DNA from: Pseudotamlana agarivorans
GTDB lineage: Bacteria > Bacteroidota > Bacteroidia > Flavobacteriales > Flavobacteriaceae
Assembly (NCBI RefSeq): GCF_001642835.1
Contig: NZ_LXEI01000003.1
Coordinates: forward strand, 62,001 to 126,000
Reading direction: 5' to 3'
DNA length: 64,000 bases
The translations under genes were made by a program, and so were the position numbers. Positions 33,575-41,312 of this stretch are shown piece after piece. The notes under the pieces were generated by a model. The model saw only the letters and a program-made list of their open reading frames with translations. It was not told the origin of the DNA and searched no databases. Each line of letters starts with the position of its first letter. Position 1 is the first letter of the stretch.

Positions 33575-33595
33575 AATAACAAAGGGAGTTACATG

Positions 33596-33868
33596 GAGAT
33601 ACGCAGAGAAGTCGCAGAGGTTCACGGAGGTGTTTTTCGATTAGAACATAATGAATTGATGTTATTCAGAGGAAGAATCTGTTCGGGTGAATATTGCAAA
33701 AGTAGTTTCACTGAGATACGCAGAGAAGTCGCAAAGGTTCACGGAGTTATTTTTTGTATGGAACATATTGAATTGATGTTATTCAGAAGAAGAATTTGTT
33801 CGGGTGAATATTGCAAAAGTAGTTTCACGGAGATACACAGAGAAGTCGCAGAGGATCACGGAGTCATT
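33596..33868. repeat. 117-bp tandem repeat, 2.3 copies
   Basis: Units start at 33596, 33713 and 33830 (period 117 bp). The first ~35 bp of each unit have the motif GAGATACGCAGAGAAGTCGCA, of a type dispersed in many bacterial genomes. As 117 is a multiple of three, a 94-codon open frame crosses it, but the encoded repeat looks non-protein and I do not call a gene. Confidence 0.88.
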
Positions 33869-33973
33869 TTTCAGTAAAAAACATTATGGAAAACAAAAAC
33901 GCTCAAAATCAACAAAAAATAATTTTATTGAAGTTGAACGTTTTATTATTTTGAAATCTCGTATTTAAATCAT

Positions 33974-36077: not shown

Positions 36078-36239
36078 CTATTCCTCTTTTTTATTATCGT
36101 TTTTAACGCTATTTAAGTATGCTTCTTTTTTAAACTTGCCGAACCTCGCAAAATCTTCCCTAATTTGCTCAGTTGTTTTCCCTTTTAAATTGTCTTTCTT
36201 TTTCATACCTGTTCCTTCTGTATCTATTTCTTTCATCAT
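36078..36239 (-). CDS. small charged protein, hypothetical
   Basis: A 53-codon frame that starts with ATG-ATG at 36239-36234 and ends TAG at 36080-36078. It is highly charged (Lys/Glu/Asp), has no hydrophobic segment, and includes KGKTTEQIREDFARFGKF. It lies 111 bp behind the anti-sigma/barrel gene on the same strand, so it could be a third member of that operon or a chance frame. I do not recognise it. Confidence 0.4.
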   Translation of the reverse strand: MMKEIDTEGTGMKKKDNLKGKTTEQIREDFARFGKFKKEAYLNSVKNDNKKEE

Positions 36240-36350: not shown

Positions 36351-37787
36351 CTAAAACTTAAATGAGAACCCTGTGTAAACGCCAATAAAGAATGGTGTGA
36401 AATTCCCAGAAGTGTTATCAAATGTATTGAATTGATATTTGAACATCGGCTCTAAATTCAAGTCAAATTTCTTCGAAAACTTGTAATTTAAGCCCAGACC
36501 CACGTTGGCACTATAACTTGTGTTATTGATGTTGTTGGCTTCCCCTAAATAAGTATTTGAACCGTCTTCGCCTTCAGAATAAATACCATTATCACTTAAA
36601 AAGAATGAACTAAAACCACCAATAACATTAACTCCAAAGCGTTTTTGTGAAATGGCGTATTGAATTTCTAAAGGTATTTCTATATAATCGAATGTTTGAT
36701 GAATGGAAACATTGGATGATGATATGGATTGTGGGAAACCCTGAGTGTTTTCGGCACTGGCAACCGATAGGTTTGATGACGAACTTTTTACATTTTGTAA
36801 AGCACTCACACCTGATCCTCTAGATTCATAAACCACAACATTATTGGTGTTGTAGCCTAAATTCACTTTATTGATTCCAGATCGAATTTTTATACGGTTA
36901 TTAACGGCATAGCTCGTAGAAATTCCGTAACTCATGTTTACATCACCCGTTTTTTGGTTGTTGTTAAACTGTTGATCTATAGACGAGCCTTCACCCAAGC
37001 TGTTAAAATAAACCGGTGCTACATTTGGCGTAACGCTCCATTTGCTTTCAGGTTTTGCATGAGCTACTTTCCCTTTGCTTTCGGCCATAGCTTCTTCAAT
37101 AGTAAGCTCATTTTGCTTAGAAGGTTTGTTTACTTCAGCAATTGTACTGTTGTTTTTGGACACATTGGATATATGTGTTTTAGCCGCTTCTTTATCTATT
37201 AAAACCGGTCCGTTGTTTTCCTTTTTAACCGACGCAGCTATTGCGGAATTAGTCGTAGTGTTATCTGAAGTTGTTTTTTCAAAATGTTGTTCTTCCGAAG
37301 ACTTCGTGTTATGGGATTTACTTACAGCAAAGTTTGTTGCTGTCTTTTTAGGTGTATGGTTTTGTTTTTCTGATTTACTTGAGGCTACTGCAGCTGAGGT
37401 GTTGTTGTTTGTGTTCGATGTCTGTTCAGTAGTTCCAGTACTATCGTTTTCAGCATTTGAATTTACCACGGATGGTGCTTGTTCAATCGTATTATTAATC
37501 GTGTTTTTTAATACTTCTGAAGCATTTTCAATCATGTCATCATTGGTGTCTACCACTTGAATTGTTGAGCTGTTGTTGTCACTTATTAAAAAGTTACCAA
37601 TGCCAATAAAAAGTAATAGTAGGGCAGCCACACCAGCATAGCGCCACCAAATTGGGATGATTCGACGTTTTTCTTCTTCGGTATTCAGTTTAGCCGCGAT
37701 GTTTTCCCATACGGCTTCGCTTGGAGTCGCTTCAAAATCTTTAAAGCGCTCTTGGAATAACCGGTCTATGTGTTTCTTTTCAGCCAT
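36351..37787 (-). CDS. anti-sigma/outer-membrane barrel fusion (Dma-like)
   Basis: A 478-residue protein with no signal peptide. Residues 1-45 form a charged cytoplasmic segment with an anti-sigma-like EAVWENIAAKL helix. One transmembrane helix follows (about 46-68, WWRYAGVAALLLLFIG). A ~180-residue Ser/Thr/Asn/Lys-rich linker comes next. From about residue 250 to the end is a beta-barrel of the PorT/OMP_b-brl type with a terminal aromatic (FSFKF). This order fits the dual-membrane-spanning anti-sigma (Dma) class described in Bacteroides. Its start codon overlaps the stop of the ECF sigma gene by 1 bp, so the sigma factor is the likely partner. Domain borders are estimated by eye. Confidence 0.8.
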   Translation of the reverse strand: MAEKKHIDRLFQERFKDFEATPSEAVWENIAAKLNTEEEKRRIIPIWWRYAGVAALLLLFIGIGNFLISDNNSSTIQVVDTNDDMIENASEVLKNTINNTIEQAPSVVNSNAENDSTGTTEQTSNTNNNTSAAVASSKSEKQNHTPKKTATNFAVSKSHNTKSSEEQHFEKTTSDNTTTNSAIAASVKKENNGPVLIDKEAAKTHISNVSKNNSTIAEVNKPSKQNELTIEEAMAESKGKVAHAKPESKWSVTPNVAPVYFNSLGEGSSIDQQFNNNQKTGDVNMSYGISTSYAVNNRIKIRSGINKVNLGYNTNNVVVYESRGSGVSALQNVKSSSSNLSVASAENTQGFPQSISSSNVSIHQTFDYIEIPLEIQYAISQKRFGVNVIGGFSSFFLSDNGIYSEGEDGSNTYLGEANNINNTSYSANVGLGLNYKFSKKFDLNLEPMFKYQFNTFDNTSGNFTPFFIGVYTGFSFKF

Positions 37788-38329
37788 TATAATGAATGTA
37801 AATGTTCTGTATTGTGATAATCTTCAATGGTCGATTTTAAAATCATCCTTGCTCTGGCCAGGTTCGATTTTGAGGTTCCAACGTTTATGTTTAGCATCTC
37901 TGCAATTTCTTTATGTGAATAGCCATCCAATACGTAAAGGTTAAAAACCAGACGGTATCGGTCGGGTAATTCTTGAATAATTCCAAGTAGATAATCGATA
38001 GAAACCAAATCTTCATCAATCTCTATTTCAACATCTTCTATAGCGCTTTCGTTTACCAGCTCGAACACTTTTTCGGTGCGGTAGCGTTGTAAAACGGTAT
38101 TTACTGTAATACGTTTTAACCAACCTTCAAAAGAGCCTTTGTTTTTATACTGTCCTATTTTATTAAAAATGGTTAAAAAGGCATCTTGCAGATTATCTTC
38201 CGCTTCTGCACGATTCCTCGAATACTTTAAGCTTACGGCGAATAACTTGTTTGAAAACAGTTTATATAATTCGCCTTGGGCTTTAGTATTTTGGGCTTTA
38301 CAATTTTCTATGAGCAATTCTAAACTCAA
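37787..38329 (-). CDS. RNA polymerase ECF sigma factor
   Basis: A 180-residue sigma-70 factor with region 2 (about 25-90, AEDNLQDAFLTIFNKIGQYKNKGSFEGWL) and region 4 (about 115-170, helix-turn-helix with LDGYSHKEIAEMLNINVGTSKSNLARAR). It directs RNA polymerase to a small set of promoters. The following gene is a probable membrane anti-sigma factor, overlapping by one base. A lipoprotein gene lies 41 bp upstream. Confidence 0.95.
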   Translation of the reverse strand: MSLELLIENCKAQNTKAQGELYKLFSNKLFAVSLKYSRNRAEAEDNLQDAFLTIFNKIGQYKNKGSFEGWLKRITVNTVLQRYRTEKVFELVNESAIEDVEIEIDEDLVSIDYLLGIIQELPDRYRLVFNLYVLDGYSHKEIAEMLNINVGTSKSNLARARMILKSTIEDYHNTEHLHSL

Positions 38330-38370: not shown

Positions 38371-38787
38371 TTATGGTGTTTCTACAACTGGAACTTCAAT
38401 GACTAAATATTGATCTTCGCCATCCTCGTCTTTTCCTTGCCAAAATTTAAAAACATACGAACCATTACCTGTAACTACAAAATTGAAAGTGTTACTCACT
38501 AAAACGTCTTCGGTCGATTCACAATCATTGTGGTCAAAGACTAAATTAATAGGGGCTACGGTACGTTCGTTGTTGTGTTTTTTGTAATAGAAATTGTAAA
38601 AATCATAACATGAAGTAGGTTGGTAATAGAATACTTCAATAGGATAGGTTTCTCCCATTTCAAATTCGTCTGGGATATTTACACTATCAACAGGTAAAAT
38701 TTCTGAATGGTAGGCTGTGCCTTCATCTACACTACATGAGGTAAATAAGGCGATTGTTAAAAAAAGTGCTATTAATCTTTTCATCAC
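38371..38787 (-). CDS. small lipoprotein, unknown function
   Basis: A 138-residue lipoprotein: MMKRLIALFLTIALFTSC with the lipobox FTSC (Cys18). The mature part is beta-rich with two further Cys (in SCYDFYN and NDCES) that may form a disulfide. It is 41 bp upstream of the ECF sigma gene and may share its transcript. I do not recognise the family. Confidence 0.75.
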   Translation of the reverse strand: MMKRLIALFLTIALFTSCSVDEGTAYHSEILPVDSVNIPDEFEMGETYPIEVFYYQPTSCYDFYNFYYKKHNNERTVAPINLVFDHNDCESTEDVLVSNTFNFVVTGNGSYVFKFWQGKDEDGEDQYLVIEVPVVETP

Positions 38788-38859
38788 AAATAAATTAGGG
38801 GGTATTATACATAGTTTATATGTAGATACATTTATCTTACGATGGTTGCGTTAAAAGCA

Positions 38860-39894: not shown

Positions 39895-40188
39895 GGCTCT
39901 GTTTTTTTACTAAAAATTGAAGGGCTAAAATACTATAAGTTTTATCATAACACAATAATAGTTTTCAACATAAATTCATGAAAAATAGAACGTTGTTTTG
40001 TGTCATTATCAATAAAAATCGAAGTGCTACGCAACCTTTATGAAGCGGTTGCATCTCATTATAAAGAATGAGTATTTTTAAAATCTTGTTCTAAATAAAA
40101 AGTAGTTTGACTAACTCAAAATTAAGCACTTAGACTTATGTTTAAGTGCTTTTTATGTCTAAAAAATGGGATAACTACGATAAAATCG
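39895..40188. other. recA-trhO spacer with three hairpins
   Basis: A 344-bp divergent spacer. Within it GCAACC/GGTTGC (40031-40052), CTCATT/AATGAG (40055-40072, followed by TATTTTT) and AAGCACTTA/TAAGTGCTT (40124-40151, followed by T's) form three hairpins. No protein gene is seen. Confidence 0.6.
40124..40154 (+). terminator. terminator-like hairpin ahead of the trhO promoter
   Basis: A perfect 9-bp stem (AAGCACTTA / TAAGTGCTT) with a 10-nt loop, ending in a run of T's. It lies upstream of the trhO promoter box, where no plus-strand gene needs termination, so it may end a small RNA. Confidence 0.6.
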
Positions 40189-40238: not shown

Positions 40239-41312
40239 ATGCAACTGTACAATAAATTAAGTGCCAAAGAAAGAGCCGAATTAATCGAAAAAGCCGGAAA
40301 GGATCGATTAACACTTTCTTTTTATCAATATGCCAAAATTGAGAATCCTCAAGAATTTAGAGATCACCTTTTTCTAACCTGGGATCAATTGGATGTTTTA
40401 GGACGTATTTATGTCGCTACCGAAGGCATAAACGGCCAATTATCCTTACCTGCCGATCGTTTTAACGAATTCAAATCACATCTAGATACCATTGATTTTT
40501 TAAAAGATATCCGTTTGAATATTGCCGTGGAGCAAGACAACATGTCTTTTTTAAAGTTGAAAGTTAAAGTGCGTAACAAAATTGTTGCCGATGGTTTAAA
40601 TGATGATACTTTTGATGTAACCAATAAAGGTGTGCATGTGGCTGCTGATAAGTTTAATGCTCTTATTGAAGATGAAAACACGGTATTGGTTGATATGCGT
40701 AACCATTACGAAAGTGAAATTGGTCATTTTAAAAATGCCATTACGCCCGATGTCGATACGTTTAGAGAGTCTTTAGATATTATTGAAGATGATTTAAAAG
40801 ACCATAAAGAAGATAAAAACCTAGTGATGTATTGTACAGGCGGTATACGTTGTGAAAAAGCGAGTGCCTATTTTAAGCATAAAGGTTTTAAAAACGTATT
40901 TCAATTAGAAGGCGGTATCATCGAATACACGCGCCAGATTAAAGAGCAAGGGCTCGAAAATAAATTTGTAGGAAAGAATTTTGTTTTTGATGAGCGTCGT
41001 GCCGAAAAAATTAGCGACGATGTCATTGCTTGCTGCCATCAATGTGGTGCTCCTGCTGATATTCACACCAATTGTGCTAACGATGCCTGTCATTTACTTT
41101 TTATTCAGTGTGATAGCTGTAAAGAAGAAATGAATAACTGTTGTTCTAACAATTGTAAAGAAATTCATGCCTTACCGTTTGAAGAGCAAAAAGCCCTTCG
41201 TAAAGGACAAGCCAACAGTAACGACATTTTCAAAAAAGGTCGTGCGGACCATTTACCTTTCAAAAAAGATTTAAGAAACATTTTTGAGACACTAAAAGTG
41301 GACAAACTTTAA
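40239..41312 (+). CDS. trhO: tRNA uridine(34) hydroxylase TrhO (rhodanese-like)
   Basis: A 357-residue protein with an N-terminal ferredoxin-like domain (about 20-115), a rhodanese domain with catalytic Cys199 in MYCTGGIRCEK, and a Cys-rich C-terminal part (CCHQCGAPADIH, CDSCKEEMNNCC) that may bind metal. The family (formerly YceA) performs O2-dependent hydroxylation of wobble uridine 34 to 5-hydroxyuridine in tRNAs. It is 11 bp upstream of trhP, so an operon is likely. Confidence 0.93.
   Translation: MQLYNKLSAKERAELIEKAGKDRLTLSFYQYAKIENPQEFRDHLFLTWDQLDVLGRIYVATEGINGQLSLPADRFNEFKSHLDTIDFLKDIRLNIAVEQDNMSFLKLKVKVRNKIVADGLNDDTFDVTNKGVHVAADKFNALIEDENTVLVDMRNHYESEIGHFKNAITPDVDTFRESLDIIEDDLKDHKEDKNLVMYCTGGIRCEKASAYFKHKGFKNVFQLEGGIIEYTRQIKEQGLENKFVGKNFVFDERRAEKISDDVIACCHQCGAPADIHTNCANDACHLLFIQCDSCKEEMNNCCSNNCKEIHALPFEEQKALRKGQANSNDIFKKGRADHLPFKKDLRNIFETLKVDKL

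Follow-up and report, generated by a model that had tools for sequence, protein, structure and literature searches.

In E. coli, the RpoE-RseA and FecI-FecR systems place an ECF sigma factor under the control of envelope state, and the outer-membrane sensor and the anti-sigma factor are separate proteins. Dma1, Dma2 and Dma3 of Bacteroides thetaiotaomicron, described with Das1 and Das2, are dual membrane-spanning anti-sigma factors; according to the available part of that report, genes of the class lie beside an ECF21-group sigma factor and their loss raises vesiculation (PMC13088901). The anti-sigma factor of the EcfO-Reo system of B. fragilis and P. vulgatus spans all layers of the envelope and, as far as the accessible portions of the two accounts go, the P. 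vulgatus system is induced by envelope-damaging agents and has NigD lipoproteins in its regulon (PMC9308784, PMC13114119). The inducers named in those portions are toxins and a BamA-binding bacteriocin, the regulon comprises lipoproteins and an LPS-region glycosyltransferase, and the nigD locus tag adjoins that of the sigma factor (PMC9308784, PMC13114119). The sections of the literature covered here give no promoter for Dma-type proteins, and our search, which took in few subscription papers, found no earlier description of a flavobacterial sigma/Dma system.

The window (the whole 64,000-nucleotide stretch of Pseudotamlana agarivorans DNA that was analyzed) encodes an ECF sigma/anti-sigma pair of the Dma type. 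This variant has a lipoprotein partner of its own and a regulon predicted from its promoter (Table 1). We consider it likely that the three genes form an autoregulated operon for outer-membrane stress, similar to Dma and EcfO-Reo, with its own lipoprotein and regulon. Published work on Dma-type proteins concerns a few gut Bacteroides and Phocaeicola; the arrangement found here is syntenic across many Flavobacteriaceae.

Table 1. Features of the sigma/anti-sigma locus, in window coordinates.
Feature	Coordinates	Strand	Remarks
Dma-type (dual-membrane) anti-sigma factor, operon gene 3	36351..37787	-	478 aa; start overlaps sigma stop
Outer-membrane beta-barrel, 8 strands, residues 250-478	36354..37040	-	Pfam, AlphaFold2, Foldseek
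Disordered periplasmic tether, residues 69-249	37041..37583	-	AlphaFold2; short pre-barrel helix at 230-239
Inner-membrane helix, residues 46-68	37584..37652	-	AlphaFold2 and hydrophobicity
Presumed cytoplasmic sigma-binding head, residues 1-45	37653..37787	-	two helices; conserved
ECF sigma factor, operon gene 2	37787..38329	-	180 aa; TTG start (38327-38329)
Lipoprotein, operon gene 1, Ig-like beta-sandwich	38371..38784	-	137 aa; lipobox Cys17
Predicted ECF promoter of the operon, ACGCAACCATCGTAAGATAAATGTATCTA	38823..38851	-	ends 38 nt before lipoprotein ATG
Second predicted promoter site	40029..40057	+	1 mismatch; far side of recA, towards trhO-type gene
Rhodanese-type gene, taken to be TrhO/YceA; possible regulon member	40239..41312	+	182 nt after second site

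Both reading frames of the pair were confirmed, and the sigma stop codon and the anti-sigma ATG share one base (TAATG). Pfam recovered sigma-70 regions 2 and 4 in the sigma factor (Sigma70_r2, 6.8e-13; Sigma70_r4_2, 2.2e-17) and OMP_b-brl_2 at residues 269-445 of the anti-sigma factor (4.5e-7), the N-terminus of which matched no credible Pfam family. Among 30 relatives searched at E up to 1, OMP_b-brl was found in 29 and OMP_b-brl_2 in 23. The AlphaFold2 model of the anti-sigma factor, built from 52 sequences (mean pLDDT 67, pTM 0.51), places head helices at residues 5-16 and 24-34, with block means for the head that are only fair (pLDDT 59-73), and a transmembrane helix at 46-68 that coincides with the sole hydrophobic peak (KD19 2.22 at residue 51; next peak 0.94). 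Four Lys/Arg residues lie in residues 35-49 and none in 69-83. Most of the tether (residues 70-197, 211-226 and 239-243) falls below pLDDT 50, and eight long strands follow over residues 250-476, with block means mostly of 86-97 and dips to 69, 75 and 63. The best PDB matches of the model by Foldseek are OmpA-type barrels (E 3.1e-7), and the C-terminal residue is Phe in all 52 sequences. Conservation follows this layout: the mean frequency of the commonest residue is 0.77 in the head, 0.68 in the barrel and 0.27 in the tether, and the tether, measured over the columns of residues 69-226 in the 52 sequences, is 146-264 aa long (median 176). The original prediction had proposed an ECF sigma factor with an anti-sigma factor joining transmembrane helix, linker and outer-membrane barrel in one chain, and Pfam, AlphaFold2 and Foldseek agree with it; the barrel, which structure prediction could have refuted, was predicted confidently, with eight strands and OmpA-type PDB matches.

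Gene order at the locus is strongly conserved. We compared the best 80 of the 543 loci encoding a relative, which are therefore close kin. The sigma and anti-sigma genes are adjacent in all 80, a degree of conservation that excludes chance for the pair, and 79 have the recA, lipoprotein, sigma and anti-sigma genes in this order; the convergent acyltransferase of the window is also present in 72 of these 79. The upstream cysteine-containing lipoprotein had been mentioned beforehand, in terms that understate it: by its retention in 79 of 80 loci it is a core member of the operon. A possible downstream small protein, also suggested at that time, fared less well: the reading frame at 36081-36239 (minus strand) matched only its own genome across loci L002-L117, with no match in the relatives' loci, and we reject it as an operon member. 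By a first-start rule, the sigma reading frames of the 80 loci begin with TTG in 37, GTG in 34 and ATG in 9 (71/80 non-ATG) versus ATG for the anti-sigma factor in 79/80, which may mean that the sigma factor is kept scarcer than its inhibitor. Elsewhere in the window, a 117-base unit is repeated 2.5 times in tandem at positions 33580-33872 (88% matches), between genes that we take to be dprA-like and trpS-like.

Kinship with the Dma class, which had been put forward from the architecture, was borne out by profile comparison in both directions. By hhalign, the flavobacterial anti-sigma family aligned with Dma-type relatives in the barrel (99.0%, E 8e-18); these relatives appear Bacteroidales-like because their genomes hold NigD. 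In the reverse search, a profile of five Dma-type proteins, taken from NigD-bearing genomes and not from B. thetaiotaomicron, picked out the window protein from head to tether at 7.3e-15, with the next gene of its genome at 0.017; one of the five (L302) is a weak match to the flavobacterial profile (0.069). The anti-sigma factor combines a transmembrane helix, a disordered tether, a C-terminal outer-membrane barrel and an adjacent ECF sigma factor with sequence kinship to the class. A second Dma was sought in the P. agarivorans genome and rejected, the next profile match being a FecR-like protein (by eye) beside another sigma gene.

Across the class, the flavobacterial anti-sigma profile found relatives in 224 of 395 genomes. 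All 29 class-search loci (18 from other families and 11 from the window's), barrel-less versions included, have an ECF sigma gene immediately upstream in the same orientation, which indirectly favors binding of the sigma factor by the head. The architecture itself varies: two anti-sigma factors carry two tandem head copies (L127, L128), two relatives without the barrel (L141, 279 aa, and L144, 263 aa) stand beside an ECF sigma gene whose promoter is of the same type, and L306 and L309, from two NigD-bearing genomes, have the sigma factor fused to transmembrane helix, tether and barrel, the head being absent. In L301 and L302, both from NigD-bearing genomes, the genes run nigD, sigma, anti-sigma. 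In three others, the anti-sigma gene is followed by genes for NigD_N-like lipoproteins, assigned by Pfam in L303 and L304 and solely by alignment in L305. For the promoter, 28 loci were compared: 18 of other families, 9 of the same family, and L307, a duplicate of L134, which had no motif before its sigma gene. A similar motif precedes the sigma gene in 9 of the 18 other-family loci (0.38 expected by resampling), and two of the nine loci without it (L134, L135) lie on stretches too short to judge. A looser pattern gave 4 of 9 for the same family, some of them anchored at a wrong start, and near forms seen by eye in L137, L140 and L146 were not counted. Three sigma-Dma-lipoprotein loci of one family (f71; L303-L305) carry the form TGCAGCG...ACATCA, with 17 nt between the boxes. 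Layout and promoter look to predate the split of these groups, the promoter part of this reading resting on half the loci.

The lipoprotein was modeled as an Ig-like sandwich at pLDDT 90 and has three invariant cysteines, namely the lipobox Cys17, Cys59 and Cys88. Pfam searches over 52 family members found the lipid attachment site LPAM_1 in 6 and otherwise scattered matches (E of 0.0077 or above), none of them credible, and a PDB profile search reached at best E 0.31. By structure, the model matched 3k0y (VIA Z 6.4), 3nqi (BF3042; 5.8) and 3k6o (4.9), all within the stated noise band; 3k0y and 3k6o we take to be kin of NigD. The lipoprotein was rejected as a NigD homologue: hhalign against two NigD-type profiles aligned the signal peptide only. 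The NigD1/NigD2 model NF051862 had no match in the P. agarivorans genome. We claim only a positional analogy between the operon lipoprotein and NigD.

The original prediction overlooked the promoter and the predicted regulon. Both suggest that the pair responds to outer-membrane stress, with lipoproteins as its output, more than that it serves vesiculation specifically. The motif GCAACC-N16-ATCT lies between recA and the next gene in all 80 loci and in the window. Only GCAACC and ATCT were fixed in the search; the 16-nt distance between them, which was free to vary, is conserved, and so are A, C, TT, G, C and A at flanking positions, which were free too. The operon site of the window differs from ACGCAACC-NTT-N13-ATCT at one position (ATC for NTT). 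With up to two mismatches allowed, the window holds two sites against 0.14 expected, and relatives also carry sites before the trhO-type gene.

Genome-wide, the motif was found together with the anti-sigma gene. In 59 relatives searched without mismatch, ACGCAACC-NTT-N13-ATCT occurred at 89 sites in 30 genomes, versus 2 for the reversed control. Of the 37 genomes in which the anti-sigma factor has a match (E up to 0.001), 30 hold an exact site; of the 22 without a match, none does (Fisher 1.7e-10, a value that ignores kinship). The gene and the motif each follow phylogeny in their occurrence, and 29 of the 30 site-bearing genomes belong to the window's own family; within the family, leaving out the weak match G028, sites are found in 29 of 32 genomes with the gene and 0 of 3 without. 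Seven genomes have an anti-sigma match and no exact site (G008, G028, G030, G035, G039, G040, G049), and the matches of G028, G040 and G049 are weak. With the spacer changed from 13 N to 12 or 14, 38 gene-bearing genomes yielded 2 and 1 sites, respectively; a two-box promoter predicts such a lock on spacing. In the P. agarivorans genome, GCAACC-N16-ATCTA has five exact sites versus none for the control, whereas the longer pattern with up to two mismatches has 12 versus 10; we therefore used only sites with no or one mismatch and rejected the two-mismatch sites as promoters. One exact site (L149) sits within a long reading frame.

We examined the genes downstream at 71 loci, comprising 65 of the 89 sites in relatives and 6 in the P. 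agarivorans genome. In all, 66 of the 89 were fetched, the additional one (G031, trhO flank) standing outside the 71, and the remaining 23 were assigned to the operon by position. At 18 of the 71, the site lies before or near a trhO-type gene (16 labeled as such, plus L216 and L247 by position). The other 53 are followed by a lipoprotein start 9-46 nt on in 30 cases, by a peptide of up to 45 residues in 12, and by something else in 11, the last including an OMP-like DUF3575 protein (L214), family-2 glycosyltransferases (L258, and L246 by likeness) and a SusD-like protein (L218). The lipoprotein share, 30/53, compares with 22/151 in a background of reading frames of at least 100 aa from the same loci, spurious ones included (Fisher 8.8e-9). 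The regular expression used for lipoproteins is crude: some of the other rows resemble lipoproteins by eye, and it also flagged four 30-residue trhO-flank peptides, which were left out of the 30.

Two families of unannotated peptides, of 28 and 30 residues, come out of this analysis. Ten peptides from ten genomes (L262, L203, L220, L231, L235, L237, L241, L242, L245, L196), each of 28-36 residues with one hydrophobic stretch, directly follow a predicted promoter; this membrane peptide is present in all six genus members examined (G000-G005), and a hairpin and T run follow its stop in the P. agarivorans genome (by eye). Another peptide, of 30 residues and with C-K/R-x-DGG as its C-terminus, lies after the trhO-flank site in six relatives (L202, L207, L216, L222, L225, L250), and no such reading frame was seen by eye after the trhO-side site of the window. 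NCBIfam gave no credible match for either family. Two loci counted as small peptides by length, L263 and L252, look unlike the membrane peptides, and L263 was rejected since its site has no plausible target downstream.

Regulon content varies between genera. Among the loci of the P. agarivorans genome, L260 has as predicted targets a DUF4377-META lipoprotein and, after it, an FKBP isomerase lipoprotein, L259 and L261 each have a lipocalin-like lipoprotein, L262 has the 28-residue peptide and L264 the trhO-type gene. The lipocalin-like gene L261 (L152 at its perfect promoter site) has an early in-frame stop, while that of a relative (L236) is open.

The mechanism we propose builds on anatomy, gene order, promoter motif, the co-occurrence of motif and gene, and the downstream genes, all taken from sequence; from these we infer sigma binding, reading of the motif by the sigma factor, the nature of the signal, the way the sigma factor is released and any influence on vesicles. 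In an undamaged cell, the head of about 45 residues would hold the ECF sigma factor at the inner membrane, with the barrel folded in the outer membrane some 180 disordered residues away. Failure of barrel assembly or disturbance of the outer membrane would lead the head to free the sigma factor, whether through loss of the chain, its degradation, or a change passed along it. Free sigma factor would then read promoters of the ACGCAACC-NTT-N13-ATCT(A) type, including that of its own operon, so amplifying both the lipoprotein and the anti-sigma factor, the latter resetting the switch. Further outputs would be small lipoproteins (here the DUF4377/META and FKBP isomerase lipoproteins and the lipocalin-like ones), the membrane peptide of 28 residues, and recA's neighbor, the trhO-type gene. 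In F. johnsoniae, according to the accessible part of the report, depletion of TamL raises outer-membrane lipoproteins and OMV yield, and the authors suggest a possible stress response for the lipoproteins. By analogy with this report and with the inducers of EcfO-Reo, and given the lipoprotein-rich predicted regulon, the signal is probably outer-membrane damage or failed barrel assembly.

It is possible, though somewhat unlikely, that the pair is chiefly a vesiculation switch like Dma1 and Dma2 of B. thetaiotaomicron, the freed sigma factor raising OMV output through a lipoprotein effector. The anatomy is the same as that of Dma, many of the predicted outputs here are lipoproteins, and TamL depletion in F. 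johnsoniae raises lipoproteins and vesicle yield alike; moreover, in the available part of the Dma account, NigD1 is required for the dma1 effect, and NigDs are reported elsewhere to be surface lipoproteins. However, NF051862 goes unmatched in the P. agarivorans genome, the operon lipoprotein shares only a signal peptide with NigD-type proteins, and vesicles may be a by-product of lipoprotein overproduction. Both membranes need not be linked at all if the chain is cut, the barrel part then acting as a normal OmpA-like protein and the head part as an anti-sigma factor of the classical sort, freed by regulated proteolysis. A tether predicted to be disordered would suit such cleavage, and the barrel-less relatives of 263 and 279 aa adjoin the same kind of sigma factor, so the head can do without a barrel. 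Nonetheless, we regard a cut chain as unlikely: head and barrel are in one frame in all 80 loci, tether length is confined to 146-264 aa in 52 sequences, and headless fusions of sigma, transmembrane helix, tether and barrel occur (L306, L309).

The regulon, in turn, would not belong to this pair if the GCAACC...ATCT promoters were read by another, co-occurring ECF sigma factor. At least one further such sigma gene is present in the genome, beside the FecR-like protein identified by eye, and the authors of the F. psychrophilum study warn, in the part available, of possible overlap between ECF regulons (PMC9723704). We consider this improbable, as the motif precedes this operon in 80/80 loci and same-kind sigma genes in other families, and no site occurs in the 22 genomes without an anti-sigma match.

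Beyond the stress operon that we favor, we offer a broader reading only tentatively, and doubt that it will hold in all its parts: the pair could serve Flavobacteriaceae as their general system for outer-membrane stress, taking the place of RpoE-RseA with a single chain. The barrel would then be a sacrificial BAM client, its failed assembly freeing the sigma factor, and the conserved two-cysteine lipoprotein would act on the barrel as a co-sensor or as a reset factor. The output would consist of fast-evolving lipoproteins and a membrane peptide of about 28 residues that tunes the response, with one promoter code (GCARC, 16-17 nt, ATCT/A) serving Dma-type sigma factors across Bacteroidia. The promoter signature is sharp enough for a regulon to be predicted from a genome, and what the barrel senses, why lipoproteins are produced, and whether vesiculation is a cause or a by-product are now open to direct tests.

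The window's system shares with Dma1-3, as given in the available part of the report, the N-terminus that binds the sigma factor (here presumed), the transmembrane helix, the disordered tether, the barrel, the adjacent ECF sigma gene and an origin in Bacteroidota; unlike them, its operon begins with an Ig-like lipoprotein without demonstrable NigD kinship, its regulon is known as a prediction from sequence, and fusions of sigma factor and barrel like that of Dma3 were met only in L306 and L309, from NigD-bearing genomes (PMC13088901). As in the accessible accounts of EcfO-Reo, a sigma gene is followed by that of an envelope-spanning anti-sigma factor and the regulon, here predicted, includes lipoproteins; the order nigD, sigma, anti-sigma in L301 and L302 mirrors that of the window, although the window's lipoprotein lacks NigD sequence kinship (PMC9308784, PMC13114119). 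The available part of the F. psychrophilum study reports a set of ECF promoters, SM6, with a rhodanese-type gene, YceA, and one sigma/anti-sigma pair among its targets, as here, but SM6 has a CGT-box -10 and T9SS genes in its regulon, and its cognate sigma factor is not established (PMC9723704). The boxes are 16 nt apart at the window's promoter versus 17 in the three f71 loci. Like RpoE-RseA and FecI-FecR, the pair appears to be an envelope-controlled ECF sigma system; unlike them, it joins sensor and anti-sigma factor in one chain.
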